Positions 6,305-62,768 of a DNA stretch of 64,000 nucleotides are shown here, piece by piece. The number at the start of each line of letters is the position of its first letter. Positions within the stretch are counted from its first letter, which is position 1. The notes beneath the pieces were generated by a model. It was given only the letters and a program-made list of their open reading frames with translations, was not told the origin of the DNA and searched no databases. The stretch spans positions 1,550,001 to 1,614,000 of the forward strand of contig NVQB01000001.1 in NCBI GenBank assembly GCA_002319075.1, in the 5' to 3' direction. Origin of the DNA: Sphingobacteriaceae bacterium (lineage in GTDB: Bacteria > Bacteroidota > Bacteroidia > B-17B0 > Aurantibacillaceae). The position numbers and the translations under genes were made by a program.

Positions 6305-7399
6305 TTAGAGCAGTGTTGAAAGTATTTTCACGATCCGTTCGGTCGATTTGCCATCCCACAATTTCGGTACCTGTCCTTTTTTGTATGTTCCTTTTTCAAT
6401 CTGCCCTACAACGTTCTGTATTTTTCCAAGATCGAATGGCAATAACACGTTGGTGCCTTCATGAATTGTAACAGGACGCTCTGTGTTGGGTCTAAGTGTT
6501 ATGCATGGCTTAAGACGAAATGTGCTTTCCTCTTGAATTCCGCCGCTATCTGTAAGAATGAATTTACATTCCGCTATCAATTTCTGAAAAGCAAAATAAT
6601 CGAGCGGTTCAGATACCTGTAACTTTTTTACTGCAACAAAACGGTCATACAGACCAAACCTTTTTAAATTATTAATAGTTCTGGGGTGAACAGGAAAAAC
6701 AATATCATAGGTTTCTGACACCGATTCGATAAGCAGCAATAATTTTTCAAGCTCTTCTTTTACATCTACCGTTGCGGGCCGATGAATCGTCATTAACACG
6801 AATTGTTCTGATTGTAATTTAAGCTCAGTTAAAATACTTGAATTTTTTATTTTTTCTTCAAAGGCCACCATGGTATCAATCATGGTATTACCTACAAAAA
6901 ACAGCTGGTTGTTATTTTTGCCTTCGCTTAGTAAATTGTCCCAGCCACTTTGCTCGGTAACAAAGAAAAAATCGGTGATCTCGTCGGTCAGCAACCTGTT
7001 TATTTCTTCAGGCATTGTGCGATCTTCACTTCTCAGGCCACTTTCAAGATGAGCAATTTTAATTCCCATTTTATTTGCTGTTAAAGCAGCAGCAAAAGTG
7101 GAGTTAACATCGCCCACTACTACCAGCAGGTCTGGACGATATTCATTTACAGTTTTTTCCAATCCTAACATTACTTCCGCCATCTGAGTATTAGCTGAGC
7201 TGCTTGAAATATTTAGAAAATAATCCGGCGTTAGCTCGAACTGTTCAAAAAACACATCTGCCATTTTTGTATCGTAGTGCTGTCCGGTGTGAACTATTTT
7301 TAAATCCAACCCAGGATAAGCAAGTGCACACCGTTTAAACTGAGTTACTTTTATAAAATTAGGACGCGTTCCAACGACGATAAGAATTTTTTTTTGCAT
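6305..7399 (-). CDS. UDP-N-acetylglucosamine 2-epimerase family (WecB/WbpI-like)
   Basis: 364-aa non-hydrolysing UDP-HexNAc 2-epimerase. Visible motifs are GTRPNFIKV (10-18), HTGQHYD (37-43), GDVNST with Asp97, ESGLRS with Glu119, PEEINR with Glu131, and DSGGIQEES in the C-terminal domain. WecB converts UDP-GlcNAc to UDP-ManNAc; the homologue WbpI epimerises UDP-2,3-diacetamido-glucuronate. The motif TIHRPATVD replaces the HRREN of classic WecB. With WbpB/D/E/G-like genes in the same operon, a WbpI-type role is an attractive inference but is not proven by sequence. Confidence 0.88.
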   Translation of the reverse strand: MQKKILIVVGTRPNFIKVTQFKRCALAYPGLDLKIVHTGQHYDTKMADVFFEQFELTPDYFLNISSSSANTQMAEVMLGLEKTVNEYRPDLLVVVGDVNSTFAAALTANKMGIKIAHLESGLRSEDRTMPEEINRLLTDEITDFFFVTEQSGWDNLLSEGKNNNQLFFVGNTMIDTMVAFEEKIKNSSILTELKLQSEQFVLMTIHRPATVDVKEELEKLLLLIESVSETYDIVFPVHPRTINNLKRFGLYDRFVAVKKLQVSEPLDYFAFQKLIAECKFILTDSGGIQEESTFRLKPCITLRPNTERPVTIHEGTNVLLPFDLGKIQNVVGQIEKGTYKKGQVPKLWDGKSTERIVKILSTLL

Positions 7400-7407
7400 A
7401 CTGGTTT

Positions 7408-8388
7408 TTAAATTTTACGTGAAACTTCTTCCGCTCTTAAAATGTCTTCCACTGTCATAACTCCTCCGGGAATATTAATGGTTTCTTTAGCGAAGGTATC
7501 TGCAATAGGCTCACCTGCCACAAACATGTCAATCCACTTGTGATAATAAACAGGTACATCCGGTGATTTTTTTAAGGAGCTTATAAACTCTTTATCTTTA
7601 AAACCCATACGCTGCATAAATGCGAAGAGTGTCTGCACAGAATAATTATCAACGTCAGAACCGACCTGCGCTCTTGTAGGAGCAAAAAAATCATCTTCAA
7701 GTATCCCGTAAAACTTATTGTCTTTCACAAAATACTGATAGGTTTCTTCAGCGGCAATGCCAATTTTTTTATCCATACCCAGAAGGTAAATTAACTTTCT
7801 TAACGGACGTTTAAAAGCCTTAAGCAGGGGATTACTTCTTAAAGAATCTGTAGTTCGTTTTTTATCAGGACTCCATAAAACCAATGTGGCAGATAATGAT
7901 TCAGGGTTGATCACCACGTGAGGTTCCCAGCTCCCCACGCGGGAAATACGTTCATCTTTCTGGTGAAACCTTTTTCTTATTCTGAGATTTACCTCCTTGG
8001 TATCAGGATTAACTTTGAGATCCTTTTCAAATAACATGCTCTCGTATCCTGAACCAAAGGCTGCGTATGACGTTAAGAGGTAATTATTGTGATGATGAAT
8101 TGCCGATGCTGCTATTCCGGTTTGATAATTTTTCAAAGGCACAAACAAATGCACTTTAACGTAAAAATCATCATTCTCATACACATAGAAAAAAGGAATT
8201 TCGTACATACTCCATTTACGATTTAAAAAGCCCTTATCGCTAAGATTTTCTCTAAACACGGCTGCCCAGAATTTTTCATCTTTTCCCATCTCCAACAATA
8301 TGGTCTCAGATTGTTTGTGAAACTCCAGCCGATCATTTACCTGATTGCTGAGCTCAATTATTTTTTTAACGTAAGAGTTAGATTTCAT
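7408..8388 (-). CDS. Uncharacterised protein with cupin-like histidine cluster
   Basis: 326 aa with no signal peptide or clear membrane helix. I do not recognise the family. The segment AIHHHNNYLLTS (about residues 96-107) puts three histidines in a row after a hydrophobic strand. A second region, GSWEPHVVINPESLSATLVLW, follows about 60 residues later. This spacing and beta-rich character recall a cupin or cysteine-dioxygenase-like metal site. The C-terminal part (230-326) is helical. It lies between the epimerase and the MBOAT/SGNH pair, with short gaps, so it probably works on the glycan or its acyl group. No function is assigned. Confidence 0.7.
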   Translation of the reverse strand: MKSNSYVKKIIELSNQVNDRLEFHKQSETILLEMGKDEKFWAAVFRENLSDKGFLNRKWSMYEIPFFYVYENDDFYVKVHLFVPLKNYQTGIAASAIHHHNNYLLTSYAAFGSGYESMLFEKDLKVNPDTKEVNLRIRKRFHQKDERISRVGSWEPHVVINPESLSATLVLWSPDKKRTTDSLRSNPLLKAFKRPLRKLIYLLGMDKKIGIAAEETYQYFVKDNKFYGILEDDFFAPTRAQVGSDVDNYSVQTLFAFMQRMGFKDKEFISSLKKSPDVPVYYHKWIDMFVAGEPIADTFAKETINIPGGVMTVEDILRAEEVSRKI

Positions 8389-8425: not shown

Positions 8426-9463
8426 TCACGGTTTTACTAATTTTTCATCTATCAGAGCTTGTGTAAAAATTTTAGAACCCTGGGTACTTAAATGCGTCAT
8501 ATCTGACCAATAAACCACTGTATCCAGGAAAGAAAAGTTTTTAAGAGCGATCACACTTTCTTTTTTGCCTGGCGAGAAAAAACTCTCATCAAAATCTCTA
8601 TTAATTTTTGCATCCGCAATCAAAGGCATATATAATTGACACACCGGTAAATTATTTTTTCTGCAAAGTGCCAGAGCACTTGCAACAAAAGTCTCCTGAG
8701 ACCTGCAATTGTGCGTAAATTCAGAGTTCCACAAATAATACAATACCGCCCTTCTGTAACGAATTATTTTAAACCCTAAACCACTCCTGCCCAACTCGGA
8801 ACGTTTTATAAATTTTGTCTGAGAAAGATTACAGGATTCAAAATACTCATCCGTTTTTTCTTTCCTGATTGCAGTATACTCCTGAGGTGTGAAATTTACC
8901 GGTTCGTAAACAACTCCATACTCCTTGTATTTTTTAGCGGCCATTTTATTACCCATTAGTTCCCAGCCCAGGTAATCAAGAATAAAATAAGGCCGTTTAA
9001 TTAAAAATTGTATAAAATTAAAATTGATAGATTGGCCGCTCTTTAATAGTGAAACCGGATCATACAACAGAGGTGTCATTTTATGCAAGTCCTTATGACC
9101 ATCTTTGAAGAGGTGAAGATAGATTTTTCCGGGTTTAAGTCCGATCACCCGTCTTAAGAAAAACAACGACACTTCGTTACCTGCGCCATTGATTCCGAAA
9201 TTTACAGAAGGTATTCCATTTGAACTAAGGGTAGAATCACACAGGCCTGCCTGGGTTAAAGACGGCCCGAAAAAAATGGAGCTCCCCTTAATTTTTGAGG
9301 AATGGTTTTTTATAAGATCCAGATTCCAGGCAATCTTTTCGAATGAACTCGTAGCCGTTTTGTTGATCATGTAATCATCAGAAACTTTCACCATGTCCAG
9401 TAAAAATGTGATCAAAAGAAAAATTAAACCAAACACCAGAGTATTAACCAGAAATTTTTTCAT
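8426..9463 (-). CDS. SGNH/AlgJ-DltD-like membrane-anchored protein (MBOAT partner)
   Basis: 345 aa. An N-terminal hydrophobic anchor (about 5-23) is followed by an exported domain. SGNH features are present: block I FFGPSLT with candidate nucleophile Ser68, the block FGINGAGNE, and a C-terminal SDMTHLS with Asp321 and His324 as candidate dyad residues. Proteins of this kind (AlgJ/AlgX, DltD) partner an MBOAT acyltransferase, and the MBOAT gene lies immediately upstream in the operon with 3 nt between them. It probably transfers or helps transfer an acyl group to the glycan in the periplasm. A clear paralogue is encoded at 54838-55878. Confidence 0.72.
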   Translation of the reverse strand: MKKFLVNTLVFGLIFLLITFLLDMVKVSDDYMINKTATSSFEKIAWNLDLIKNHSSKIKGSSIFFGPSLTQAGLCDSTLSSNGIPSVNFGINGAGNEVSLFFLRRVIGLKPGKIYLHLFKDGHKDLHKMTPLLYDPVSLLKSGQSINFNFIQFLIKRPYFILDYLGWELMGNKMAAKKYKEYGVVYEPVNFTPQEYTAIRKEKTDEYFESCNLSQTKFIKRSELGRSGLGFKIIRYRRAVLYYLWNSEFTHNCRSQETFVASALALCRKNNLPVCQLYMPLIADAKINRDFDESFFSPGKKESVIALKNFSFLDTVVYWSDMTHLSTQGSKIFTQALIDEKLVKP

Positions 9464-9466
9464 TTA

Positions 9467-10939
9467 CTAGAATCTGAAATAAATAAAATCCTGTTCCTTG
9501 CCTTCGAAACATAAAATCGAAAAAATTATTAAAATATAAATAGCCCATCTCAGCGTTTTTTTTGCAAACCAGCTTCCCTGTGGTTCTATTGGCAGAGCAA
9601 ATTGCAAAGCGTGTTGTTTGTCGCGTTGCACCCATTCTATGCAAATCATTAAAAAAATAAATATAAGCAGAGCAACAGTATTTACTTTATCACTTAGTTG
9701 GGGCTGTGAAAAGAGAGAAGTTGAAAAAAGATCTTTAAAGTAATAAAAAGCATCGGTAATGGTATCTGATCTGAACAGGATAAAAGTGAACATCACCAGA
9801 GTAAATGTTTTCAGCATGTTCGAAAATTCTTTCCATGTAGGTAGCACCTGATCTTTCGCTATTTTTTTTCGCTTGTTGATGGTACCTTTTAATATGAGCG
9901 GAATAAAATAACAGCCTTGTAAAAATCCAAATAGTACAAATGTCCAGTTTGCACCATGCCATATTCCTATAAGTGTAAAATTAACAAGAATAGCCGCTAT
10001 CAAACCTTTCTGATCATAATTTCTAAAAGCAATAGAGAGTGGCGTGAACACATACTCCGTTAACCAGCTGGTAAGAGAGATATGCCACTTACGCCAAAAC
10101 TCGGCAATATTCTGGGCGAAAAAGGGATACTCGAAATTGCGTGTAATAGTAAAGCCTAATAGTTTTGCAATTCCGATAGCCGTATCTGAATAGCCAGAGA
10201 AATCGGCATAAATTTGCAGAGTGTAAAAAAAAGCTCCTATCAGCAGAGAACTTGCCGGCAAGGTATCATAGTTTTCAAAAACCGAATTTGTTATGGTGGC
10301 GCAATTGTCTGCAATAACAATCTTTTTAAACAAACCCCAGAGTATTTGCCTCATGCCGTCTGTTGCTAAATTATAATCAAATTGGCGTTTGTTGCTCAAT
10401 TGAGGTACAAGCAAGGTTGCGCGATCGATTGGACCCGAAATAACGCTCGGAAAAAAAGACACATAATTAAAGAAGACGCACCAATTCCGGACAGGTTCCG
10501 TTTTACCTTTCTCCACATCAAGCAGATAACTTATGGTTCTAAAAGTATAGAAACTTATTCCCAAAGGCATTAAGAGATTCAATGTGTGAATGTTTGGCTC
10601 AACATTAAAATAATGAAGGAGGTTAACAAAAGAATCAATAAAAAAATTTAAATACTTAAAAATCAACAAACCACCGAGACCCTGCGCAAGGCCAATAAAT
10701 ACAAGGAGGTTACGTGTCTTTTGATTTTCCGATTTATGAATATAAATACCAAGTATATAATTAAGGAAAGAGCTAGCTATCAGGAGCATTAAAAAGCGCC
10801 AATCCCACCAGGCGTAGAAAAAATAGCTTCCAGCGAGCAGAAAAAGATTCTGAATTTTTAAAGAGCGTGCAAACGCAAGCCAATAAATGAAAAAAAACAG
10901 GGTGAAAAAGAGGAGGAAAGGAAGTGAGTTAAACAACAT
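9467..10939 (-). CDS. MBOAT family O-acyltransferase (AlgI/DltB-like)
   Basis: 490-aa polytopic membrane protein. N-terminal segments include SYFFYAWWDWRF (38-49). The MBOAT signature FWRKWHISLTSWL contains His286, and the catalytic-type histidine is His328 in LIGIWHGANW. AlgI and DltB move acyl groups across or within the membrane to a polysaccharide or teichoic acid, together with an SGNH-type partner. Here that partner lies directly downstream, and an ACP, a hydratase, a reductase and an FkbH-like loader lie directly upstream in the operon. The group moved may therefore come from ACP rather than CoA (inference). Confidence 0.93.
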   Translation of the reverse strand: MLFNSLPFLLFFTLFFFIYWLAFARSLKIQNLFLLAGSYFFYAWWDWRFLMLLIASSFLNYILGIYIHKSENQKTRNLLVFIGLAQGLGGLLIFKYLNFFIDSFVNLLHYFNVEPNIHTLNLLMPLGISFYTFRTISYLLDVEKGKTEPVRNWCVFFNYVSFFPSVISGPIDRATLLVPQLSNKRQFDYNLATDGMRQILWGLFKKIVIADNCATITNSVFENYDTLPASSLLIGAFFYTLQIYADFSGYSDTAIGIAKLLGFTITRNFEYPFFAQNIAEFWRKWHISLTSWLTEYVFTPLSIAFRNYDQKGLIAAILVNFTLIGIWHGANWTFVLFGFLQGCYFIPLILKGTINKRKKIAKDQVLPTWKEFSNMLKTFTLVMFTFILFRSDTITDAFYYFKDLFSTSLFSQPQLSDKVNTVALLIFIFLMICIEWVQRDKQHALQFALPIEPQGSWFAKKTLRWAIYILIIFSILCFEGKEQDFIYFRF

Positions 10940-10944
10940 AGTTT

Positions 10945-11667
10945 TTATTTAAGAGTTGCGGCCGCATTAATTACCAGGTTAACTCCATTTAATTGAGTTC
11001 CGGCTGTGCTCAAAAAAAGAATAGTTTCCGCCACTTCAGCAGGATCCAGTAGTTTTTTCAAAGGATGACTCTCCGTCATTTGTTCAATAAGCCTTTCGTC
11101 TATGGCATTGGTAAAAGAGGTTAGCATAAAAGCGGGTGAAACAGAGTTGGATGTAATATTAAACCTCGCATTCTCAACAGCCCACACCTTGGTTAGCTCT
11201 TCGAGATAGGCCTTGTTGGCGACATAAACGGAACTTCCGATGGGAGGCGTATTAACCAGCGCAGATGTTAGCACCGTTATTATCTTACCCCCCTTCTTTT
11301 TGCGAAAAACAGTGAGAGCGGCCTGGGTTATCATAATGGTGGAGAGTACATTTATTTTAAACTCAGATAAAAAGTCGTTCGCATCCGTTTTATGAAAATA
11401 AGAATTGATAAATGAACCTGTGTAAGCATTGTTTATCAAAACATCGGGAGAAATCTCTTCTATTTTCGTACAAAGATTTTTTAGTTCTTCTTCGTTATTA
11501 AAATTGCAACGAACAGGATAGGTATTTTCAAACTCACTTTTTATTTTCTGCGCGTTATCACCGGAAGAATTATAGGTAAAGTAAACTTCGTTTGAAGAAA
11601 CGCCGGCTAATTTTTTTGTGATTGCTTCTCCTAATCCGGAAGCTCCGCCAGTAATAAAAATTCTCAT
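10945..11667 (-). CDS. Short-chain dehydrogenase/reductase (FabG-like)
   Basis: 240-aa SDR. The nucleotide-binding motif TGGASGLG is at 6-13. VLINNAY (76-82) is the NNAG-type motif. The catalytic residues appear as Ser135 and YVANK (Tyr148, Lys152). Its placement with a MaoC-like hydratase and an ACP suggests a 3-oxoacyl-ACP reductase role for a dedicated acyl group. A sugar dehydrogenase role is possible but less likely in this position. The gene overlaps the MaoC-like gene by 4 nt, which suggests translational coupling. Confidence 0.88.
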   Translation of the reverse strand: MRIFITGGASGLGEAITKKLAGVSSNEVYFTYNSSGDNAQKIKSEFENTYPVRCNFNNEEELKNLCTKIEEISPDVLINNAYTGSFINSYFHKTDANDFLSEFKINVLSTIMITQAALTVFRKKKGGKIITVLTSALVNTPPIGSSVYVANKAYLEELTKVWAVENARFNITSNSVSPAFMLTSFTNAIDERLIEQMTESHPLKKLLDPAEVAETILFLSTAGTQLNGVNLVINAAATLK

Positions 11668-12059
11668 ATAATCCCGATTTGTATTTTTCCTTTAGCTACC
11701 ACTTTGGCTTCCTCGTTTTTAAAAGAAAACTTGAATTCCACGGCATTTACAGATTCAAAGACTTCGTTTACTTTTGCCTCAAAAGTTAATATGTTATTCA
11801 TGTACACAGGATTTTTAAACTGGATGTCCTGCGAATGAATTATAACATTTTTGATGGGGAGACATTCTCCGATGAAATAAGATAAAAATCCGTTCAAAAT
11901 ATTCCCGTGCATTACCCTACTCATGAACCCTTTACTTGTAGCAAACGCCTGATCTGTATGTAAAGGATTTTTATCCTGAAAGGTCATTATGAAACGATCG
12001 TAAATTTCTTCACTTACAGTAAATGTGTTTTCGAAAAGCTCGTCCTTTCTGAAGTGCAT
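11664..12059 (-). CDS. MaoC-like hot-dog fold dehydratase/hydratase
   Basis: 131 aa, the length of a single hot-dog domain. The R-hydratase motif is visible: FQDKNPLHTDQAFA places Asp29 and His34 as the catalytic pair, followed by VMHGNILNGFLSYFIGE. The family interconverts (R)-3-hydroxyacyl and trans-2-enoyl thioesters. Between the ACP and SDR genes it could prepare a hydroxylated or unsaturated short acyl-ACP for the glycan. It is unlikely to serve bulk fatty acid synthesis, being inside a surface-glycan operon. Confidence 0.85.
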   Translation of the reverse strand: MHFRKDELFENTFTVSEEIYDRFIMTFQDKNPLHTDQAFATSKGFMSRVMHGNILNGFLSYFIGECLPIKNVIIHSQDIQFKNPVYMNNILTFEAKVNEVFESVNAVEFKFSFKNEEAKVVAKGKIQIGII

Positions 12060-12062
12060 ACC

Positions 12063-12299
12063 TTATTTAGTTAAAATACAATCTATCATTTGTCCAACAT
12101 TTTGCCAGCTTTGAATTTCTTTAGATGTAAACCGAATCTTAAAGAATTTTTCCACGGAAACTACTAGTTGAATATGGGTCAGAGAATCCCACCCTTCGAC
12201 ATCAGCCGCCGTGGTAGTTTCAGATAATTTTATGCTCTCATCATCCAGAACATCTATAAAAATTGCGTTTACGTTTTTTAAAATCTCTTGTCTTTCCAT
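12063..12299 (-). CDS. Acyl carrier protein
   Basis: 78 aa, acidic, with the 4'-phosphopantetheine site [10 protein letters not shown] (Ser39). It is probably a dedicated carrier rather than the housekeeping AcpP, because it sits in the glycan operon between an FkbH-like loader and a hydratase/reductase pair. In the Dlt system the carrier DltC supplies D-alanine to DltB. This ACP could supply an acyl group to the MBOAT protein in the same way (inference). Confidence 0.9.
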
Positions 12300-12304
12300 T
12301 GTTT

Positions 12305-14035
12305 TTAATTATTATGATATGTTTTTATATAAGTCGTTTTTCCCTGATGCGATTGCGTATCGAGAATCCAATGTTCGCCTGAAGCCGAGAAACCAAGATT
12401 CGCGTAATGATCCTTTACCATACCATTTTTTGCTGTTGGTAAATATTCTCCTTTAATAAATTTATAATTTTTCTCCTTAGCGAAATTTGAGATTGTATTT
12501 AACACAAAATTCTCCATGCCGCGTTTAAGAACCCTGCAACTCATAAACCAGGTATCTATAAACAAGGTTTCGGTATTTTCCTTTTTAAGAATAACCGCAC
12601 AGATCATTCCATTGTCGCCAAATTTATCTTTGAGCGTGAAAGAGAAAGAAAAATAGTTTTCCGATGCCGCAACAGTTTCAATGTCGGCTTCGGTGTAACG
12701 AACGGTTCGCAAATTAAACTGGTTAGAACGCTGCGACAGTTGTGCTACACGGGGAGTGTTAAATTTCGTAAATGGCTCAACTACAGAAATCATTTCAAGA
12801 TTTTTCAAAAAATCTTCTTCATTCGTAAAACTCTTTGAGAGTACAGCACGCTCAGCCTCTATCTTATAGAGTTTTGTTCTTTCAACATCTTCATTAGAAA
12901 AGGAAATTGTTTCGAATAAATTTAAAGTATACAGATATTCGAGGTAATCCGCAGGGTCTTCCGGTAGTTCTGGAACTGTAATTTCAGGAATGTTTTCTCG
13001 TACGATGTTTCTTTCAAAAGGATTATCATCCAGAAAAACCATCGAATCAAAACCTATGTTTAAAATACTTTGTATATGACGGATGTTATCCGCCTTGTTT
13101 TCCCAGTTAGCAACAAATACGGCAATATCATCCATCTTAATTACCATATCCGGATGTTTCTCAAATGGCTCACGCGCAATAGATTCAGTATTTTTACTAC
13201 ATACAGCAAGAATAATTCCCCTGTTTTTTAATTTTTTTATCCAACCCTGAAATTCGGTAAATGCTTTTCCAATACCCAAAGTACCGATCTGAATATTCTC
13301 CATTCCATCATCGCCTATAATTCCGCCCCACATTGTATTATCAAGATCGAGGATAAGGCATTTTTTTGTTTTACCGTGCATGGCTCCAACAAGATCCAGC
13401 GTTCTGGAAGCAACAAGCGGCAAAATATCCAAACTCAACACCATTTCGGTATTAATGTAAATGGAAGTCTGAAATACTGAAGGTTTACCCGATCCGTTTT
13501 GAATGGATGCAAGGTCGCAAATATAAAAGTTAGGATGCGATACAGCGTAGTTCATCAACTCATAATTTAATTTACGTAGTTGGAATAAAAAAGAAGATTC
13601 TATTTTGTTCGCATAGTTTCCAAAAACAGAATCATTTATTTCTGAATAATTATAATAGATAACTTTAGCGCCAAGGGTTGCGGACACTGTTGTATAAAGG
13701 CTATCAATAGTAGCTATACGTTCAGATGCCAGCAGAGAATGTTCAGACGGCGGCATCTTGTTATACTTACTTACGAGTTTATGACTCGATTGAAAAATGA
13801 TTACGATCTCAGGTTTAAACTCATATAATTCTGATCCCTCGTCAAATACCTGACGCTCTATCTGATCAAAATCTGCCTCAAATAGATCGAGATTAAATCC
13901 ATGATCGTAGGCTTCGCCTTTTAGGGCTTGTGTTAAGAATTGGGTAGCGGTGTCGCCTAGCAAAGCCACTTTAATTTTTTTTAAGGGAGAGAAATCTTTT
14001 TTGAGATTGTTTTTGAGTTTAAAAAAATCTTTCAT
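12305..14035 (-). CDS. FkbH-like HAD-type acyl-ACP loader
   Basis: 576 aa. An N-terminal domain (about 1-220) with SGNH-like beta-alpha character precedes the HAD motif [11 protein letters not shown] (Asp230, Asp232). A C-terminal GNAT-like segment follows. This is the FkbH architecture. Characterised FkbH proteins take the three-carbon unit from 1,3-bisphosphoglycerate, remove phosphate and load D-glyceryl onto an ACP. The neighbouring ACP gene begins 5 nt after its stop. Whether the group here is glyceryl or another acid is unknown. Other FkbH-domain proteins in glycan clusters have no proven role. Confidence 0.9.
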
Positions 14036-17889: not shown

Positions 17890-18999
17890 TTATTTTTTCC
17901 AGGGTTTTAAAATTTTTAGAAATTTAAAGTAGTTGCTCCACATCTGTTTCTCGGTCTTAAATTCAAAATGGCTTCTTGGTTTTTCCTGCATAATTTTTTC
18001 AAATGCTTCCTCCGAAAGTCCGAGTTTTTTTAAAACATATTCTCTCTCTTTTAAAATTTCTTCGGGGTTATAGGGCGGCTTTTGCAATTCAAGCAGCGCT
18101 TGTTCTTTAGTAACCTGGCCCGAGCAGATGAGCGTGGCCAAATGCGCTCTACGTTTATCTATTTTAAATTTTTGTGGCAGAATGTATGTCTGATAAAATT
18201 TCGTAAAAATTGATTCGTGATGTTTACCGCCATAATTGCGCCATCCAACTTCTTTTGTAATAACCTCTACTGCCTGGTCTTTATTGTAATTCAGGTAATT
18301 TAATACCTGTATCGACTCAAGTTTCAAGAACCAATGGTAATAAAGTTTTTTCCAGAAAGTAACATGTGGAAACGTTTTAAGTGGTTTTCCGGAACCGTAT
18401 TTACTGTAAATATCCACAATGTTTTTCCAGTCCATTTTATCAAAAGCCCATCCTTTGGGCATGATAGCTTCTGTGGCGAAATTAAACCCGTTAATGGTGT
18501 ATTTAATTTTATACTTCTGGGCAATATTTAAAATTGTGGAATAAATAGCGTGGTCGGTGATGGCTTCTATATCCACCACTCCGGCCTTTAAATAGGCCAG
18601 TTGCAACTCTTTAAACTCTTCCCAATTAATAACATGTGTTTGCAATTCATATCCTAACCTATCGCAGAGGCTCTCAATGTTTTTAACGGCCAGTTCGCTG
18701 TTCCATCCATTGTCGAAGTGCACCATCAGCGGGCGCAAACCTTGCTGCTTTGTCCAGTAAGCAAGATACGAGCTATCCACCCCTCCACTAACCCCTAATA
18801 TACAGTCATATGCTTTTCCTTTACCTGCTAGCTTAATTTCATTTACTTTGGTATCCAGCCATTTTTTCCGCTGCGCTGCGTCGCCAAGTTTGTTTACCGA
18901 ACTATAATAATAGTTACAATAATTACAGATACCTTTTTCGTCGAGCGCAAACACATCTGAATCTTCGCTGGTTAATATACAATTGCTACACTTTAACAT
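17890..18999 (-). CDS. N-acetyl sugar amidotransferase (WbpG-like), copy 1
   Basis: 369 aa. A zinc-type Cys4 knuckle (Cys4, Cys7, Cys25, Cys28) precedes the PP-loop ATPase motif SGGVDSS (71-77). WbpG/PseA proteins turn an N-acetyl group into acetamidino, using ATP and ammonia from a HisH/HisF-type glutaminase. It lies next to the WbpB/D/E-like set, as in Pseudomonas O-antigen clusters. No HisH/HisF genes adjoin it; the only pair is 29 kb away at 47048-48417 in the same operon. A second homologue is at 39770-40936. Confidence 0.93.
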   Translation of the reverse strand: MLKCSNCILTSEDSDVFALDEKGICNYCNYYYSSVNKLGDAAQRKKWLDTKVNEIKLAGKGKAYDCILGVSGGVDSSYLAYWTKQQGLRPLMVHFDNGWNSELAVKNIESLCDRLGYELQTHVINWEEFKELQLAYLKAGVVDIEAITDHAIYSTILNIAQKYKIKYTINGFNFATEAIMPKGWAFDKMDWKNIVDIYSKYGSGKPLKTFPHVTFWKKLYYHWFLKLESIQVLNYLNYNKDQAVEVITKEVGWRNYGGKHHESIFTKFYQTYILPQKFKIDKRRAHLATLICSGQVTKEQALLELQKPPYNPEEILKEREYVLKKLGLSEEAFEKIMQEKPRSHFEFKTEKQMWSNYFKFLKILKPWKK

Positions 19000-21202: not shown

Positions 21203-22777
21203 CTATTCTTTTAATAAAATGTCAGCAATATTCTGAGAAGCATGAGCTCTGTTATTTACCAAAGGTTTCCACATTTCATCCATTAAAAATTCATCAAGAT
21301 ATTTTTCCAGTATCACGGGAGAATTTACATGAAAAACAGCTTTGTCATCTACAAAAGGAAGTCTTGATTTTTCGCTAAGCTCAAAATTAATAGATGGTAT
21401 ATTAAACCACGAAGCCTGAAAAGAGACCATCGAAGAAAAAGAAATGGCCACCGACGATTTTAAAAACAAATCAAATAAGCTTTTTTGCACCATTCTTTCC
21501 GTATAAGAAGGTACCGGAAGGATACGTTCATGCATAGCATCATTTCCCTCCGTTTCACTGGGATGTTTTCGCACTAGTACAACTACATCTTTATGCTTGT
21601 CGAGATAACTGCTCAGCATTTTCAAGACATCCTGCTTCTCAAGGGCGTAAATCCGCGAAGTTAATAAAGCTATCACTTTCTTATTTTTTATCTTCTCAAG
21701 AACAAGATCTAAGGTTCCCGAATACTGATGAAGTTCAGCACTGTCTTGTAAAACATGACCGGTAACCGGCAGCTGAACAGGACTTAATTCACAGTAAGAC
21801 AGAAGCAGCTCTTGTGTATTTTGATCGGGCATAAACCAATAATCAAAATAGGAGTGCATGTTCTGAGGATCCTTTGCTTTTGTACCATTCATATAATTAA
21901 ATGTCACACCTTTCATTTTAGAGGCAACCATACAAAGTACATTTCCTTCACCCTCATTTTCTCCCGCATTCAGAATCACTTTTTTAACCCCATTGCTGAA
22001 TAAACGTTCGTATTCGTCAACATGATTACAAAGGGTGTTCATTAAATAAATCAGTGTATTTATAAAATCAGGATCTTCATTGTAGAAAAACAATTTTACT
22101 TTCTGAAAACCGGATAATTTGAACGGGTTTCGTTGCACAGCTTTTGTTGTAAAGTTAAGTCCAAAAGTTTCAAGCATTTGTTTATTTACAGCAGAGGTAT
22201 CTTTATTATTAATAGATTGAAATGGAAGAACATTTTTAATTCCCAGCTTTTCAAATAAATTCCCATATACATCTACCATAAATGGATCATTTAAACGAAA
22301 GGCTATTTTTTTTTCAATCGCTGTTACTTGCTTTTCCGGTAGTATCTGATAGGAACTATGTTTATATAAAAAAATCTTCCGAATTAAGGCAAGACGCTTT
22401 TTTATTTCAGGTCTTTCATCGTAAAAAATGAATGACGGATTACCTTTAATCTTATTTGCTTCAAACAGTAAAGCATTTGTAAAAAGATAAGCCCAGAAAA
22501 GGTCTTTGTTCAGCGCTTTTTGCAGGTCGTATCCTTTATACATAAAAATTCCAGGAAAAGCCAAACTAAGCTTTTTTGTTTTTTCTGCAACGAGGTTGAA
22601 ATTATACCAGTTGGCTTCGCTTGTATTTTCAAACGCATTTACCAATGTAAAATTGGATGCAAGGGTACTATAGTTAACAGATGCCTCTATTTTAGTAAAG
22701 ATAATTTTCTCAATTCCGTCCTTTTGAAACTGGTTAATGTGGCGTGCTGAAATAGTATTTATTACTCCGACTTTCAT
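21203..22777 (-). CDS. Putative GT-B glycosyltransferase of unknown family
   Basis: 524 aa. I do not recognise the N-terminal 340 residues. The C-terminal part resembles capsule-type GT-B or Kdo/sialyltransferase-like proteins: KVIALLTSRIYALEKQDVL, then VVVLVRKHPSETEG, then SVAISFSSMVSFQASWFNIP with a conserved-looking SFSS turn. No signal peptide. Because this operon encodes a nonulosonic acid pathway, it is a candidate CMP-nonulosonate transferase; this is inference only. It overlaps the next gene by one base (TAATG). Confidence 0.5.
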   Translation of the reverse strand: MKVGVINTISARHINQFQKDGIEKIIFTKIEASVNYSTLASNFTLVNAFENTSEANWYNFNLVAEKTKKLSLAFPGIFMYKGYDLQKALNKDLFWAYLFTNALLFEANKIKGNPSFIFYDERPEIKKRLALIRKIFLYKHSSYQILPEKQVTAIEKKIAFRLNDPFMVDVYGNLFEKLGIKNVLPFQSINNKDTSAVNKQMLETFGLNFTTKAVQRNPFKLSGFQKVKLFFYNEDPDFINTLIYLMNTLCNHVDEYERLFSNGVKKVILNAGENEGEGNVLCMVASKMKGVTFNYMNGTKAKDPQNMHSYFDYWFMPDQNTQELLLSYCELSPVQLPVTGHVLQDSAELHQYSGTLDLVLEKIKNKKVIALLTSRIYALEKQDVLKMLSSYLDKHKDVVVLVRKHPSETEGNDAMHERILPVPSYTERMVQKSLFDLFLKSSVAISFSSMVSFQASWFNIPSINFELSEKSRLPFVDDKAVFHVNSPVILEKYLDEFLMDEMWKPLVNNRAHASQNIADILLKE

Positions 22778-23715
22778 TAGTTTACAGGCCCTAACTGAGT
22801 TAGTAAATAATTCGTGTAATATTTCGCGCCTGAAATATTCATATGATCCACTGAAGAGAAGTAAGTGTAGTCGTTCATATCATCAGGGGCAGGTATAAAA
22901 TCAATGCCACTTTCTATCATCCTCTTTTTAAACAGACTATACTGCCTCTTATAATTTTCGCTCAAATAATCATCTAATTTAAACGTGGGCGTTTCCAGCA
23001 CCTTAACTTCTGTGTTTTTTTTCTTGTATTTTTTTACGAGCTCAATAAAGTAATTTGCTTTTACCGCACTAAACTCTGCCATTTTAAACTTCTGATAACT
23101 ATGGCTTTCTGCTGAAATAATGGAATCATTTACTATTTCGCTTGAAGATAAAAATCCTTTATATAAAATAGCATCTTCTTTTGCATTCTCAAAATCAACC
23201 TGCAATTGGTATTTATTATGAAACATACTTTTACCCGCTTTTTCGATGCTTTTCCGTAATAATGAAGTGTATACACCGAAATCTGAATATTTATAGGCAA
23301 CAAATTCATTGCTTAATGGATTATTAAGGTACCGGTGAATTGGATATAATTGCCAGTTGTCAAAAATTTCGGAACAACTACCAGGATTAAGGTTAAGTAC
23401 AATAATTTTAGGTTTCTCCTTGCAGCATGCCAGATAATCATCCAGCACAACTTCATAAAAATATGGTCCGGCAGTAGCAACTCCTAAAACAAAAGTTGCT
23501 TTAAAGACACTATCAAAAGCCGGGGTGTAAATTCCGTTGTAAAAATAAGAAGGTCCTACAAAAAGATAATCAAGAGCGTTTGTGCTGGCAGCAACTTTTA
23601 CACGTGCTACACTACTATTAGCTACAGGAAGCAATCCATCATTCATTTCCAAAGCAAGTATCAGCAATGCTAAAGGAAAAACAAACAAGCTCAATTTTAA
23701 GAAAAATCGTTTCAA
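22777..23715 (-). CDS. SGNH-like membrane-anchored protein, second type
   Basis: 312 aa with an N-terminal hydrophobic anchor (about 5-24). FVGPSYFYNG gives a block-I-like Ser56, and SSVDHMNISG near the C-terminus gives Asp290/His291 as catalytic-type residues. It is only distantly similar to the SGNH proteins at 8426-9463 and 54838-55878. It probably works outside the inner membrane on the glycan, as an O-acyl transferase or esterase. No MBOAT gene is adjacent, so it may share the one at 9467-10939 or act alone. Confidence 0.6.
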   Translation of the reverse strand: MKRFFLKLSLFVFPLALLILALEMNDGLLPVANSSVARVKVAASTNALDYLFVGPSYFYNGIYTPAFDSVFKATFVLGVATAGPYFYEVVLDDYLACCKEKPKIIVLNLNPGSCSEIFDNWQLYPIHRYLNNPLSNEFVAYKYSDFGVYTSLLRKSIEKAGKSMFHNKYQLQVDFENAKEDAILYKGFLSSSEIVNDSIISAESHSYQKFKMAEFSAVKANYFIELVKKYKKKNTEVKVLETPTFKLDDYLSENYKRQYSLFKKRMIESGIDFIPAPDDMNDYTYFSSVDHMNISGAKYYTNYLLTQLGPVN

Positions 23716-26347: not shown

Positions 26348-27397
26348 TTACAAAGAAATATGTTTTATGTCTTCCTGTGCCTTTAAAAAATCGTCGGGCT
26401 TACCAATATCAAGCCAATATCCCAGTAAGGGATAGGACACAACTTTATCAGAGCGTGTTAAGGCATTCTCCAGAAAATCCGTCGCATTGTGAAAGGTATC
26501 ACCTGGAATGGTTTCAAGCAATTTACGTTTAATCAGATAAATACCTGCATTCGAATAATAAGTATAGGTGGGTTTTTCTTTTAATGTCTTCACAATGTTA
26601 TCCCGTGTTTCAATCACTGCATAGGGAATAGTTACTTTATAAGGAATCGTAGCCACTGCTATATCAGCATCCTGTGAAATGAACTCTTTGTAGAAATCTG
26701 CGAAATCAATATTTGTCAGCAGATCTGAATTCATTACTAATATATTCTCATTGTCAAAATCCTGTATTTTTGAAACGGCGCCAATTGTTCCCATGGGCTT
26801 GTCTTCATCTATATATCTTACCTGGATATTTTTAGCGCTTCCGTCTTTAAAAAAATCTTTGATCATGTGACCGAGGTAATTTACCGAAATGTAAAAGTTA
26901 CTTATACCATTGTATGCAAGCCTGTCAACATTGTGTTCAATAATTGGTTTTTTACCTATTACCAGCAAAGGTTTAGGAGTAGTATCGGTCATTGGCTTTA
27001 AACGTTCACCTCTGCCGCCTGCCATGATCACAACATCCAGGGGCAAAACATTTTTCATTACGGTAAGATCATACACTTTTAAAAGGCGTTTGTTCTCATC
27101 CAATAAGGGAATCGTTTTGATATTTAAAGCTCTGAATTCTTCAATTTTATCGTTGTAGTAAGTTCCTTTTGTGAGGTATCTAAACGATGTGCGCATCACA
27201 GAATTAACCTCATCTTTAAGCGTAATTCCATTCAATAAGCCGCGACGTATATCACCGTCTGTTAGGGCACCTATCACTTTTTGATCTTTGCTATCCACCA
27301 CAAACAAGGTTGAACCTGCCGGAAAAAAATTAATCTTTTCCATAGCATCTTTTATAGAAGAATCGGGGCTGATTGTATTTTCAGCTAATTTATTCAT
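26348..27397 (-). CDS. ptmE: CBS-domain nucleotidyltransferase (PtmE-like)
   Basis: 349 aa. Two CBS motifs fill residues 1-118 (for example GALTDGDIRRGLL). A sugar-nucleotide pyrophosphorylase domain follows, with VVIMAGGRGERLKPMTD (122-138) and TPKPLLVIGKKPIIEH. In Campylobacter PtmE makes the GDP-glucosamine that starts legionaminic acid synthesis, distinguishing that route from UDP-based pseudaminic acid synthesis. It lies between NeuA- and NeuC-like genes and overlaps the latter by 4 nt. Confidence 0.88.
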   Translation of the reverse strand: MNKLAENTISPDSSIKDAMEKINFFPAGSTLFVVDSKDQKVIGALTDGDIRRGLLNGITLKDEVNSVMRTSFRYLTKGTYYNDKIEEFRALNIKTIPLLDENKRLLKVYDLTVMKNVLPLDVVIMAGGRGERLKPMTDTTPKPLLVIGKKPIIEHNVDRLAYNGISNFYISVNYLGHMIKDFFKDGSAKNIQVRYIDEDKPMGTIGAVSKIQDFDNENILVMNSDLLTNIDFADFYKEFISQDADIAVATIPYKVTIPYAVIETRDNIVKTLKEKPTYTYYSNAGIYLIKRKLLETIPGDTFHNATDFLENALTRSDKVVSYPLLGYWLDIGKPDDFLKAQEDIKHISL

Positions 27398-28497
27398 GCT
27401 TGTTTAATTTTACGTAACAGGTTAATGATCCGGTCCGAAGTTTTACCATCACCATATATATTTATTTTTTTCGGAAGAGCGAGAGTGCTTACTTTGCGCA
27501 TTGCCAGGTAAATTGCTTTTTCTTCCACGGGCACATCCATTACGTTAGAATTTCTCTCTCTCCCTCCCTGCCTGTTGCCAATGTTGATCACATGCTTCCT
27601 GAATGAAGCTGCTTCTACAATGCCACTGGAAGAATTTCCCATCACATACAAACAGGATTTTAATGCCGTGTAATAGCCTCTTGATCCTAATGATTCTACA
27701 AGATGAATGTGCTCATTCTTGTTCGAAGCCTCAATCAATTCTTTCCGGATAACATCACCCATGGTATCTGCATTAGGCATGGTGACAAGGACGTTCGAAC
27801 GCGTTCCCGCAAGCACCTTACCAAGAGTTTGAGCGTAGATTTTGTTCTTTTTATAATCTACCGTTTCAGGATGAAAAGTAAATAAAATAAAAGGCTGACG
27901 AATATCAAACTTAAATTGCTTTTGAAATTCAACCGCAGAAAAAACTTCGGTGTTCTTAATGTTTTCAATGGCCAGCGAACCTGTATGCACCACATTTTTT
28001 TTATGGCCGAGGATCTGCTGAACTCGCTCTGCATTTTTTTTTGTATTCGTAAAATGGTAGGTCGCCATCAAAGTGAGCGCGTTCCTGTAATAATTATCAA
28101 TGGCCCCGTTCGTTTCTTCTCCGCCGCTTAAATGCGCTACGGGAATATTAAATGGCACCGAAGCCGACACGGCCGCGTACATTTCATACCGGTCGCCCAA
28201 ACATAAAATGAGATCGAAAGTATGCCTGGCCCAGAATTTCGAAAATTTTACATGTACTTCTCCAATGGTTTGTGCTATGTGTTGTGGCGAATCTCCTTCC
28301 AGCACCGTTTCTATTTTTTCAAAGACCTTGTAACCATCACGCTTGATAGCATCAATGGTGTAACCGTGTTTTCTGGAAAGGTGTGTACCAAAGGCAATGA
28401 TGTTTAATTTCATGCCGGGCACTTTTTGTGCAGCATCTAGTAAAGGCCTGAAGAACCCAAAGTCTGCGCGCGAACTAGTTAAAAGTGCTATTTCCAT
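27394..28497 (-). CDS. neuC: Hydrolysing sugar-nucleotide 2-epimerase (NeuC/LegG-like)
   Basis: 367 aa. LTSSRADFGFFRPLL at the N-terminus, LCLGDRYEMYAA, and AHLSGGEETNGAIDNYYRNA match NeuC. A C-terminal GNSSSGIVEAASF site binds nucleotide diphosphate. It releases the free 2-epimerised hexosamine derivative used by the NeuB-type synthase next door. In the GDP-based legionaminic pathway this step is LegG. Confidence 0.93.
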   Translation of the reverse strand: MEIALLTSSRADFGFFRPLLDAAQKVPGMKLNIIAFGTHLSRKHGYTIDAIKRDGYKVFEKIETVLEGDSPQHIAQTIGEVHVKFSKFWARHTFDLILCLGDRYEMYAAVSASVPFNIPVAHLSGGEETNGAIDNYYRNALTLMATYHFTNTKKNAERVQQILGHKKNVVHTGSLAIENIKNTEVFSAVEFQKQFKFDIRQPFILFTFHPETVDYKKNKIYAQTLGKVLAGTRSNVLVTMPNADTMGDVIRKELIEASNKNEHIHLVESLGSRGYYTALKSCLYVMGNSSSGIVEAASFRKHVINIGNRQGGRERNSNVMDVPVEEKAIYLAMRKVSTLALPKKINIYGDGKTSDRIINLLRKIKQA

Positions 28498-29519
28498 TCA
28501 AGGTCTTTGAGACGCAATAAACTATCTTCTGTTAAGTCCTGCATTGCAACACAGCCGATAAGATCTTTAAACAACATGGGATTAATACCGTTGCCCGGCC
28601 GCTTCACACAAAGGTCCGTTTCAGTAAGGACTTGTCCCTTCTTTACGCTCCGGGCAAGATGAATACTTTTGCGTGCAATGTTGGTATTCTTTTTTTCAGA
28701 CTCTGAAGGCAATTTTACTCCTGTACCTAAGGCCGCTTCAATATTGCGAATGGCTTTTACCATGTCTGTTAGCTCCTGTGGATCGAGGGATGCTTTATGA
28801 TCCGGCCCTTCCATTGTTTTATCGAGGGTAAAGTGTTTTTCAATAACAGTAGCTCCCATGGCAACTGCAGCCACCGGCACCTCTATCCCTAAGGTGTGAT
28901 CTGAATAACCAACAGTAACATCAAAAGCATTTTTGATAGTGATCATCGCTTTAAGATTTACATCTTTCATGGGCGTTGGATATTCTGTATTGCAGTGCAG
29001 CACGGTAATGTCTTCGCGTTTTGTTCCGGCCTCCGTCAATACCCCCAAAGCATTCTCAATATCACCGAGTGTTGACATGCCAGTAGAGAAAATAACTTTT
29101 TCTTTATAGGCACCAATCTTTTGCAGATAAGGCAGATTGGTAATTTCGCCCGACGGAATTTTCCATAAACCCATTTCAAGCGTTTTTAGAAAATCAACGC
29201 TCTCCATATCAAAGGGAGTTGACAGGAATAAAATGTTTTTGCTTTTACAATAAGCTTTCAGCTCAATAAAATCATCAAAGCTCAACTGCAATTTTTTTAC
29301 CATCTCCAGCTGACTCTCCGAACTACCGGTGGTCTGCTTTTGATAGTCTGCTTTTTCAGCGTGTTTTGATATAACATTCTCAGCAATGAAAGTTTGAAAT
29401 TTCACTGCGTCTACCTTCGCAATTACGGCAAAATCTACAAGTTGTTTTGCCAATTGCATGCTACCGTTATGATTAACGCCAGCTTCAGCAATTATGAATA
29501 CACGGGAATTATTTTTCAT
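28488..29519 (-). CDS. neuB: N-acetylneuraminate/legionaminate synthase (NeuB/LegI-like)
   Basis: 343 aa. The TIM-barrel starts with [18 protein letters not shown] (8-25). The middle has [18 protein letters not shown] and [19 protein letters not shown]-terminal SAF/antifreeze-like domain follows ([14 protein letters not shown]). The family condenses phosphoenolpyruvate with a HexNAc-type sugar to give a nine-carbon acid. It overlaps both neighbours (10 and 11 nt), so tight coupling is likely. Neighbouring LegB/LegC homologues favour a 5,7-diamino product. Confidence 0.94.
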
Positions 29520-39769: not shown

Positions 39770-40936
39770 TTATTTAGCAACTTTCTCTTCTTTCATTACG
39801 CAAAACTTGTCATAGAAACTTCTATTGACATATCCTTTTTTATAAAGAATAAAAAACAACCAACGTAGTCGTTCGAAAGTTTTTTTATACGTTGGATAAT
39901 CGGTGTAATGTTTTTTAGGCATAGTCCAAATGTTTTGCCACTCAACTTCAGTAAAACCACAACGCGTCCTGATTTCATCCTCAATGCTTTTATCAACAGG
40001 CTTAGGGATAGCCAATTCCAAAATAGCATCTTCCTTCTTCTTTTGACCGGACCGCACGAGACCTGAGAACTCACACATTCTTAAATCAATGCCAAACTTT
40101 TTAGGCAGGAAATAATTATTAGCAAAATACGCGGTTCGGTTTTCCATATGATGCCCGCCATACCATTGCCATCCATATGTATCCGCCAGAAACTTTTTTG
40201 TAGCTTCTTTATTATATTCGAGATAGTATAAAGGACGAAATTTTTTTATTTTTTTTACAACCATCCAATAAATCCATTTATGCAAATACATTAGAGGAAT
40301 CGTTTTAATTTTATATTTTTCTCCAAATTGCTTGTGAATGCTTTTTATATATTTGGCATCCATATAAACCCAACCCGGAGGCGTTATTCCCTCAGTTCTG
40401 AAAGAGTGTCCCTCCCATATATGTTGAACATTATACTTGGAGCAAGCGATATACAGCATCGCTGCAAAACCAAGATCAGTAGGTATGTCAATTTCAGGTA
40501 CAGATGCCTTAAAAAAAGACTTCATTACCGCTTGATACTCTTTGTTGTCAACAACATGTGTATATAAGTCTATATCAAGTTTTGAAGTCATAACCTGAAT
40601 ATTCTCAACCGCTATTTTCGAATTGAATGTGTTGTCATAGTGTGCTGCCAATACTCTTAGACCATATACATTTTTGGCTAGGTGTAACATATAGGAAGAA
40701 TCACAACCCCCGCTCATTCCAATTATTACGTCATACTTTTTTCCTTTACCGTCAATTTTCATTTGAGCAACATAGTCGTCAATGATTTTTTTTCCTTTAG
40801 AGTCGGTGGGATATTGAGCGTCCATCTCATCAAATTGCTTGCAATAATTGCACATCCCTTGCTCATCAAAAGTTATTTTTGGAATACTTGAATCATACAA
40901 GCAGCGTTTACATTTTACTATTGAAGTATTAGTCAT
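39770..40936 (-). CDS. N-acetyl sugar amidotransferase (WbpG/PseA-like), copy 2
   Basis: 388 aa. The same layout as the copy at 17890-18999: a Cys4 knuckle (Cys9, Cys12, Cys29, Cys32) and the PP-loop SGGCDSS (75-81). Members form acetamidino groups on UDP-diacetamido-uronic acids (WbpG) or on nonulosonic acids (PseA/LegA type). The two copies here probably act on different sugars, sharing the single HisH/HisF pair encoded 6 kb upstream in the operon. Confidence 0.92.
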   Translation of the reverse strand: MTNTSIVKCKRCLYDSSIPKITFDEQGMCNYCKQFDEMDAQYPTDSKGKKIIDDYVAQMKIDGKGKKYDVIIGMSGGCDSSYMLHLAKNVYGLRVLAAHYDNTFNSKIAVENIQVMTSKLDIDLYTHVVDNKEYQAVMKSFFKASVPEIDIPTDLGFAAMLYIACSKYNVQHIWEGHSFRTEGITPPGWVYMDAKYIKSIHKQFGEKYKIKTIPLMYLHKWIYWMVVKKIKKFRPLYYLEYNKEATKKFLADTYGWQWYGGHHMENRTAYFANNYFLPKKFGIDLRMCEFSGLVRSGQKKKEDAILELAIPKPVDKSIEDEIRTRCGFTEVEWQNIWTMPKKHYTDYPTYKKTFERLRWLFFILYKKGYVNRSFYDKFCVMKEEKVAK

Positions 40937-46187: not shown

Positions 46188-47048
46188 TTAAACTGTATCC
46201 ATAAATCTTTTTTCAACCTTATGGAATACTTTGATGCCAACAAAAAGACTTGCCAATACAAATAAGACATCATAACAAATTAATTTCCAGGAAAAAAAAC
46301 TAGATGGAGCAAATCCTTTTTTTGCCAATTCTATCCAACCAGTAATTGGATTTAATTCTAACAAGAGGTAAAATTTACTATCGTGTGGAATTTGACTTAA
46401 GGGATATATTACCGGAGAAGCAAACATTAGAAGTTGCAATCCAAAAGAAACAAGCATTGTTAAATCCCTGTACTTCGTGGTTAAAGAAGAAATAATAAGA
46501 CCAAACGATAAACCAAGAAGAGAGAGCATCAAAAAACAAGGTAAAAGAAAGAGCGCATTAATATTAATTAAACAAGGTATATCAAGGATAAAAATTCCAT
46601 ATAGATAAACAACAACAAACAAAAGACATTGAAACATCAATTTATAAGAGTTAGATATAATAACACTTACAGGAACTGTAAGTCTAGGAAAGTAAACCTT
46701 TCCAAAAACAGATGAGTTTGCGGTAAATGTTGAAGCTGTTTTATTAAAAGCATCCGAGAAAAATATCCATAGCGAATTCCCCAAAAGATAAAAACCAAAC
46801 GAAGATAATCCAGCAGGAGTTTTTATTTGAGCAATTGATCCCAAAAAAACTAATACAAGTGAAGTAACAATAGGCTGTAAGATAAGCCACATAGGACCTA
46901 GAATGGTCTGCTGATAGGTTGCTTTAATGTCTCTTTTTACAAAAAGAATAATAAGATCTTTATAATCGTATAATTCTGAAAAGATTTTTTTCATCTTAAC
47001 AGAACTGTTATTTTCCAGCGTATTCCAGCTTGCGTTACTTTCCATCAT
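46188..47048 (-). CDS. wzm: ABC-2 type polysaccharide export permease, Wzm type
   Basis: 286 aa, about six membrane helices after a cytosolic N-terminus. LIILFVKRDIKATYQQTILG and PMWLILQPIVTSLVLVFLG (about 33-71) are the family entry region; FASPVIYPLSQIP lies before the last helices. It forms the membrane part of the exporter with Wzt. Its start overlaps the HisF stop by one base. Confidence 0.94.
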   Translation of the reverse strand: MMESNASWNTLENNSSVKMKKIFSELYDYKDLIILFVKRDIKATYQQTILGPMWLILQPIVTSLVLVFLGSIAQIKTPAGLSSFGFYLLGNSLWIFFSDAFNKTASTFTANSSVFGKVYFPRLTVPVSVIISNSYKLMFQCLLFVVVYLYGIFILDIPCLININALFLLPCFLMLSLLGLSFGLIISSLTTKYRDLTMLVSFGLQLLMFASPVIYPLSQIPHDSKFYLLLELNPITGWIELAKKGFAPSSFFSWKLICYDVLFVLASLFVGIKVFHKVEKRFMDTV

Positions 47049-62764: not shown

Positions 62765-62768
62765 ACCT

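Follow-up and report, generated by a model that had tools for sequence, protein, structure and literature searches.

The stretch of DNA analysed here, called the window throughout, comprises 64,000 nucleotides of contig NVQB01000001.1 (positions 1,550,001 to 1,614,000) from a Sphingobacteriaceae bacterium. We examined six genes on its reverse strand, running from position 14035 down to 8426, that an earlier reading made from the letters alone (the sequence-only reading) had described as a self-contained acyl-modification module, dependent on an acyl carrier protein (ACP), within a polysaccharide operon. The six open reading frames (ORFs) lie where that reading had placed them and are contiguous on one strand, with intergenic gaps of 5, 3, -4, 5 and 3 bases. 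In order, they encode an FkbH-type loader, a stand-alone ACP, a MaoC-type (hot-dog) dehydratase/hydratase, a FabG-like short-chain dehydrogenase/reductase (SDR), a membrane acyltransferase of the MBOAT family and a protein with a predicted SGNH fold.

Profile searches placed the first five proteins in these families with scores above the curated cut-offs, and the residues named beforehand are all in position. The loader (12305-14035, 576 amino acids (aa)) combines an N-terminal FkbH_N domain, a HAD-IIIC core with the motif DLDNT at 230, and a C-terminal part with Cys500, possibly the acyl-carrying cysteine. It scored 264.6 bits against PF21211 (cut-off 27) and 297.8 against TIGR01686 (cut-off 146.65), and is related to BF1531 (PDB 3slr). 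The ACP (12063-12299, 78 aa), with its phosphopantetheine site at Ser39, passed PF00550 modestly (24.8 bits, cut-off 20.8). The MaoC protein (11664-12059, 131 aa; Asp29/His34) scored 41.9 bits against PF01575 (cut-off 27); its nearest solved structures are 3-hydroxyacyl-thioester dehydratase 2 (3ir3) and an (R)-specific enoyl-CoA hydratase (1iq6), the best match being a 3-hydroxyacyl-thioester dehydratase. The FabG-like protein (10945-11667, 240 aa) belongs to the SDR family by PF13561 (115 bits, cut-off 27) and falls below the FabG equivalog model (TIGR01830, 118.3 bits, cut-off 297.75). Similarly, the MBOAT protein (9467-10939, 490 aa) carries the conserved histidine, His328, and passes PF03062 (61 bits, cut-off 27), while remaining below the DltB model (TIGR04091, 181.8 bits, cut-off 375); the DltB structures 6bug and 8jem are among its relatives.

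The sixth protein (8426-9463, 345 aa) matched no Pfam or NCBIfam profile at E 0.001, the DltD profile PF04914 included, and no PDB sequence better than E 0.5. An AlphaFold2 model built from 16 sequences had a mean predicted local distance difference test score of 65, with residues 26-38 and 172-254 below 50. Foldseek alone gave no match to this model at E 0.001, with SGNH-type hydrolases in the top rows (best E 3.3e-3). VIA-align, run on the same candidates, superposed the model on the sialate O-acetylesterase 6njc (Z 14.7, root-mean-square deviation 3.2, 163 residues) and on the periplasmic domain of a lipopolysaccharide acetyltransferase, 6se1 (Z 11.8). The motifs G-P-S at 66-68 and D-M-T-H at 321-324 supply Ser68, Asp321 and His324 as candidate catalytic residues, although 14 of the 16 alignment rows had been picked by that same pattern. 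The protein is thus predicted to have an SGNH fold, and its N-terminal helix (residues 2-24) could serve as a membrane anchor, in line with the anchored SGNH-like partner that had been proposed. In a search of 40 genomes of the genus (E 1e-5) it was found in its own genome only, twice, and is therefore unusable as a marker of the module. A paralogue (54838-55878, reverse strand, 49% identity) lies outside the polysaccharide operon, lacks a Pfam match and has no MBOAT beside it. Another reverse-strand ORF (22777-23715, 312 aa), for which no profile match was found, shows G-P-S and D-H-M-N by eye and is possibly a second SGNH-type protein of the operon.

We weighed the gene that follows downstream (7408-8388, 326 aa) as a possible seventh member and discarded it; its product matched no Pfam or NCBIfam family and was never the best query for any ORF in the relatives' loci that were compared.

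Conserved linkage and catalytic residues

The genome holds a single FkbH above cut-off. Close FkbH homologs (E 1e-100) were present in 9 of 392 evenly drawn Bacteroidota genomes, this one included, and the MaoC subfamily (E 1e-18) in 2 of 395, namely this genome and G316, both of which also carry FkbH. A MaoC profile built from seven sequences was used for family-wide searches. It matched 19 of 320 genomes of the family of G316 (f20), 9 of 87 in the window's own family (seven strong matches and two weak ones at 76-78 bits), and 2 of 397 in a further family, f21 (one strong, one weak at 75 bits). The weak matches (G012, G013, G1101) proved to be MaoC-SDR fusions whose loci carry a different FkbH type. 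These fusions, together with a cut frame in G004 (L048), stand outside the 30 distinct strong MaoC loci considered below, which include three from a named genome collection (L010, L011, L016) and in which L007 and G011 count as one genome.

At all 30 loci FkbH lies in one run with MaoC, directly beside it or separated from it by the ACP and, in L105, by one further ORF as well. The SDR is present at 27 of the 29 loci that could be judged (L016 ends after MaoC), the exceptions being L007 (the same as G011) and L010. An MBOAT gene is in the run at 25 of 28 judged loci, with G792 and L016 ending too early; it is missing in G800, G1059 and G010, the last weakly judged because its contig ends one gene past its SDR. 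SGNH genes were called in these loci by a pattern (length, G-x-S, D-x-x-H) rather than a profile, and by eye in L063, L067, L068 and L117. With these calls, the complete set of six families is present at 23 of the 30 loci (19 from f20, the window, L011, G767 and G768), and the window's gene order is seen at 20, the window and 19 f20 genomes, the extra ORF of L105 (441 aa) falling between FkbH and ACP. Co-occurrence of the module genes, on which the sequence-only reading had staked its proposal, is therefore conserved. Glycosyltransferase or sugar genes stand beside most of the relatives read by eye (L062, L100, L117, L118, L120, L142), whereas the neighbours read at L007 and L010 do not look like polysaccharide genes.

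Catalytic residues were counted in the FkbH clade of the window, at 28 loci with MaoC and 18 without (46 in all); the window and L142 were left out of the count. Asp230 and Asp232 of the FkbH protein (the HAD D-x-D motif), its Cys500 and Ser39 of the ACP are kept at all 46; in the set lacking MaoC, Asn233 of FkbH is found at 17 of 18 loci and Thr234 at 15 of 18. MaoC retains Asp29, Asn31 and His34 in 28/28. Asn106, Tyr148 and Lys152 of the SDR are present at all 25 loci with an SDR match, and Ser135 at 24 of them. His328 of the MBOAT protein is conserved wherever the site aligned (37/37; at 9 of the 46 loci it did not align). The SGNH residues were kept out of the independent evidence, because the motif itself had served to pick out most of the sequences concerned.

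Modularity and rearranged relatives

A smaller FkbH-ACP-MBOAT set without MaoC and SDR occurs in both Bacteroidota and Pseudomonadota. An SGNH-pattern gene follows its MBOAT in Ferruginibacter (L002-L005, L013), Paraflavisolibacter (L008) and L009, and an SGNH gene was recognised by eye in L063, L067 and L068; among Pseudomonadota, 12 of 21 loci had both an ACP and an MBOAT match in the DNA fetched. Loci are scored here as lacking MaoC when the fetched DNA, which for some contigs is short, yielded none; at the 18 loci without it that were examined, tblastn (E 1e-6) gave no SDR match either. Since the smaller set occurs on its own, MaoC and SDR are an optional tailoring pair added to an FkbH-ACP-MBOAT core. 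Conversely, FkbH, ACP, MaoC and SDR are also seen together with other neighbours. The linkage claimed by the sequence-only reading is thus conserved, but the six genes are not an invariant unit, and the term modular cassette suits them better than closed system.

The presence of MaoC was mapped on a tree of 50 FkbH proteins, made with a 'quick' method that left 21 of 47 inner branches open, with one FkbH row per locus and without L051 (same as L007) and L142. Presence of MaoC requires eight changes on this tree, at least four of them forced by starred branches, and none of 500 label shuffles needed as few. On this tree, then, presence of MaoC is clustered and is not of single origin. One locus lacking MaoC (L063) falls inside a starred clade with 19 carriers, and the tailoring pair comes and goes among close relatives. 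Repeated gain or loss of MaoC, together with the rearranged loci, indicates that the loader and the tailoring pair recombine.

Several relatives show how the parts have been rearranged. The single FkbH gene of this stretch of L062 (4248-14001) has a plain ACP-MBOAT-SGNH unit on one side and an ACP-MaoC-SDR-MBOAT-SGNH unit on the other; another MBOAT-SGNH pair is present as well, and one glycan perhaps receives two kinds of acyl group there. In G767 and G768 (L117:6227-7111 and L118:6078-6956), ACP and a hexapeptide-repeat acyltransferase form one protein, encoded next to FkbH-MaoC-SDR; this fusion connects the ACP cargo with the acylation of sugars and similar small acceptors. In G1059 (L142:5447-9486), FkbH-ACP-MaoC-SDR is followed directly by a KASIII-type protein (by Pfam) and an ACP-like ORF that scores 18 bits to the window's ACP and has no Pfam match; the late start of the FkbH frame in this locus points to a possible interruption of its N-terminal part. 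A second architecture of FkbH loci, in which MaoC and SDR form one fused protein, is found in L121 (5305-10422), L122 (3809-9234, FkbH cut by the contig end) and L143 (951-8801), and these three also carry an additional SDR, a KASIII-like protein and a pair of ACP-like ORFs. KASIII was assigned by profile in L121 and L142 and by eye in L122 and L143. That MaoC and SDR are fused in these other FkbH loci supports consecutive action of the two on one carrier.

Genomic context and a proposed assembly line

In the window, the six genes are surrounded by genes of polysaccharide synthesis. A WecB-like epimerase is encoded at 6305-7399, a WbuX amidotransferase at 17890-18999 on the reverse strand (274 bits, cut-off 203), NeuC at 27394-28497 (375 bits, cut-off 236) and NeuB at 28488-29519 (509 bits, cut-off 400); the operon also holds a DegT aminotransferase, a Gfo/Idh enzyme, a glycosyltransferase and an ABC transporter with a Wzt C-terminal domain (Wzt/Wzm-type genes). 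Judging from NeuB/NeuC, WbuX and the Wzt/Wzm-type genes, the polymer is probably a glycan of amino sugars and nonulosonic acid that is exported by the ABC transporter. The polysaccharide setting given by the sequence-only reading stands for the window, though it does not appear to extend to the MaoC loci L007 and L010.

Other features of the region were noted as well. A reverse-strand ORF resembling WbuX (39770-40936) has weak PP-loop matches only, and a HisF-type protein with a class-I glutamine amidotransferase is encoded at 47048-48417 on the same strand; together with WbuX, these perhaps constitute an amidino-sugar pathway. Adjoining the polysaccharide operon, at 52384-54666 on the forward strand, are genes for an exosortase, XrtX (174.1 bits, cut-off 170), for a weak match to the membrane protein associated with XrtX (21.5 bits, cut-off 75) and then for a serine hydroxymethyltransferase. 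A short-period repeat at 62264-62828 can be read as a 163 aa ORF on either strand.

We propose that the cassette adds a three-carbon hydroxy acid, of which lactate is the best candidate, to the exported polysaccharide. To the reading with lactate as product we assign a probability of roughly one half; the broader proposition, that it carries out ACP-dependent three-carbon acyl decoration of a glycan, appears likely. This fits the earlier suggestion of a small hydroxylated acid that is assembled on the ACP and then passed to the glycan, and would narrow it to a lactyl group. By analogy with its family, the FkbH protein would take the 3-phosphoglyceryl unit of 1,3-bisphosphoglycerate, dephosphorylate it and load the ACP, yielding glyceryl-ACP, a product described for FkbH proteins (PMC7489565, PMC4979870). 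MaoC would then remove the C3 hydroxyl and the C2 hydrogen to give 2-hydroxyacrylyl-ACP, the enol of pyruvyl-ACP, and the SDR would reduce the 2-keto group to form lactyl-ACP. Given the precedent of DltB, AlgI and PatA, the MBOAT protein would take the acyl group from the ACP and carry it across the membrane, where the SGNH partner, presumably periplasmic, would attach it to the glycan, probably through an ester bond. Transfer of this kind would follow the logic of PatA/PatB and AlgI/AlgJ/AlgX (PMC9487903). The FkbH-ACP-MBOAT core alone would transfer unmodified glyceryl.

The lactyl product is suggested by chemistry and by the enzymes missing from the window. The window contains none of the genome's seven KASIII matches (the nearest ~161 kb from the window edge), none of its ten PF00109 ketosynthase matches (nearest ~385 kb) and none of its five matches to the adenylating, AMP-binding ligases of PF00501 (nearest ~411 kb), which argues that the cluster does not lengthen the chain and that MaoC and SDR should act on the three-carbon unit loaded by FkbH. 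Without extension, the C3 hydroxyl of glycerate would be the only beta-hydroxyl on the ACP cargo. Conversion of glyceryl to lactyl needs one dehydration and one reduction, which would account for these two activities travelling with FkbH. A table line in PMC7901079 gives FkbH domains as converting 1,3-bisphosphoglycerate and ACP to D-lactate-ACP, and agrees with this model in that such a conversion needs a dehydration and a reduction. The assembly logic of the cassette is well supported. More tentative is the full proposal of a dedicated and previously undescribed glycan-lactylation route, leading from 1,3-bisphosphoglycerate via glyceryl-, pyruvyl- and lactyl-ACP, in which MaoC and SDR would represent an evolutionary switch from glyceryl to lactyl in an FkbH-ACP-MBOAT-SGNH system.

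Several observations weigh against a lactyl product or its transfer. In the portions of the literature examined, neither a 2-ketoacyl-ACP substrate for a FabG-like SDR nor a glyceryl substrate for a PhaJ/HTD2-like MaoC protein has a precedent. The two judged loci with MaoC and no SDR, L007 and L010, may reflect pyruvyl transfer or a reductase acting in trans, or may mean that the model is wrong; given their surroundings, the acceptor there may also differ. The nearest relatives of the window's MBOAT protein (L050, 60% identity; L008, 59%) come from loci without MaoC, so that this transferase is not visibly tuned to lactyl over glyceryl. The KASIII-type protein and second ACP-like ORF after MaoC-SDR in G1059 suggest that the acyl group may be extended in some relatives, and two of the f20 polysaccharide regions (L063, L100) have a KASIII-ACP set only a few kilobases away from their FkbH gene. 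Finally, the SGNH assignment comes from a predicted model for which Foldseek by itself returned no match at the threshold used.

Some of these points bear on other cargoes. Because the MaoC and SDR proteins resemble the hydratase of fatty-acid synthesis and the FabG family, the module could make (R)-3-hydroxybutyryl-ACP or another short 3-hydroxyacyl group from fatty-acid intermediates, with the SDR reducing a 3-ketoacyl-ACP and/or MaoC hydrating crotonyl-ACP, while FkbH supplies a separate glyceryl group or acts otherwise. Groups of the 3-hydroxybutyryl type are common on bacterial amino sugars, and the KASIII-ACP sets of L063 and L100 would suit such a pathway. Nevertheless, we consider it unlikely: the window lacks a ketosynthase, and a pathway fed by fatty-acid synthesis would have no need of a MaoC/SDR pair that tracks FkbH at all 30 loci. 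Alternatively, a ketosynthase working in trans might extend the acyl-ACP to a longer polyhydroxylated acid (C5 or more), as suggested by the KASIII gene and ACP-like ORF that follow FkbH-ACP-MaoC-SDR in L142 and by the KASIII-like proteins near the MaoC-SDR fusions of L121, L122 and L143. In the window, where the ketosynthase is likewise missing and the MBOAT and SGNH genes follow directly, such extension seems distinctly improbable.

Least probable, in our view, is an oxidised three-carbon acid, in which the SDR would oxidise glyceryl-ACP to a hydroxypyruvyl or 2-hydroxy-3-oxopropionyl group, as in hydroxymalonyl-ACP formation, with MaoC as an auxiliary. The dehydrogenases of FkbH-dependent methoxymalonyl-ACP pathways are not known to belong to the SDR family, and such a cargo would give the dehydratase no function despite a catalytic dyad that is kept in 28/28. 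FkbH routes to methoxymalonyl-ACP do oxidise glyceryl-ACP with dehydrogenases, but the account consulted in PMC7489565 describes these only as similar to those of the FK520 pathway. With the cargo as proposed here, the acceptor might be a lipid, protein or peptide instead of a polysaccharide, given that the targets of SGNH/MBOAT pairs include several envelope polymers (PMC9487903) and that L007 and L010 are not in an apparent polysaccharide operon. For the window this is rather improbable, because its genes lie inside such an operon and most relatives read by eye adjoin glycosyltransferase or sugar genes.

If the lactyl reading is true, a glycolytic acyl phosphate could serve directly, with no need of coenzyme A, as the source of activated non-acetyl acyl groups for polysaccharide decoration. 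It would also allow a prediction that can be read from genomes, with FkbH-ACP-MBOAT denoting glyceryl and the addition of MaoC and SDR denoting lactyl.

Relation to known systems

Among the matches listed in the open-access literature, none described this cassette and none linked FkbH with MBOAT in a glycan; those that mentioned both families concerned aeruginosin-type peptides. The term 'lactyl-ACP' had no match in the open-access literature searched, and the matches listed for lactylation dealt mostly with protein lactylation. In trans-AT polyketides such as bryostatin, D-lactate is loaded by an FkbH-DH-KR arrangement. Such loading would share with the module a lactyl unit made by a loader that draws on 1,3-bisphosphoglycerate; it takes place on a multidomain polyketide synthase without transfer to a glycan, whereas the enzymes of the module are free-standing. 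The tetronate, FK520 and oxazolomycin pathways likewise pair FkbH with a stand-alone ACP and draw on 1,3-bisphosphoglycerate (PMC7489565, PMC4979870). Their glyceryl unit enters polyketides, however, while the module genes lie in a polysaccharide operon with MBOAT and SGNH partners.

The O-acetylation systems AlgI/AlgJ/AlgX and PatA/PatB resemble the module in using an MBOAT and SGNH pair on an envelope polysaccharide (PMC9487903). These systems move acetyl groups, in the case of PatA presumably from acetyl-CoA (PMC9487903), whereas the module has a dedicated ACP and loader and would carry another acyl group.

The sequence-only reading had drawn its parallel with the Dlt system (DltA/DltC/DltB/DltD), in which DltA, DltB and DltC have their roles in D-alanylation of lipoteichoic acid. 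Like the module, Dlt combines a carrier-protein acyl donor, an MBOAT and an SGNH-fold partner, DltD being listed in the SGNH family (PMC9487903). The module differs in that its loader is FkbH rather than an adenylating ligase, its cargo would not be an amino acid, and two tailoring enzymes are added. We rejected membership in Dlt on the profile scores, with the MBOAT protein under the DltB cut-off and the sixth protein unmatched by the DltD profile, and on the missing AMP-binding ligase in the window. The parallel thus holds as logic and fails as membership: the module works like Dlt, but it is not Dlt.

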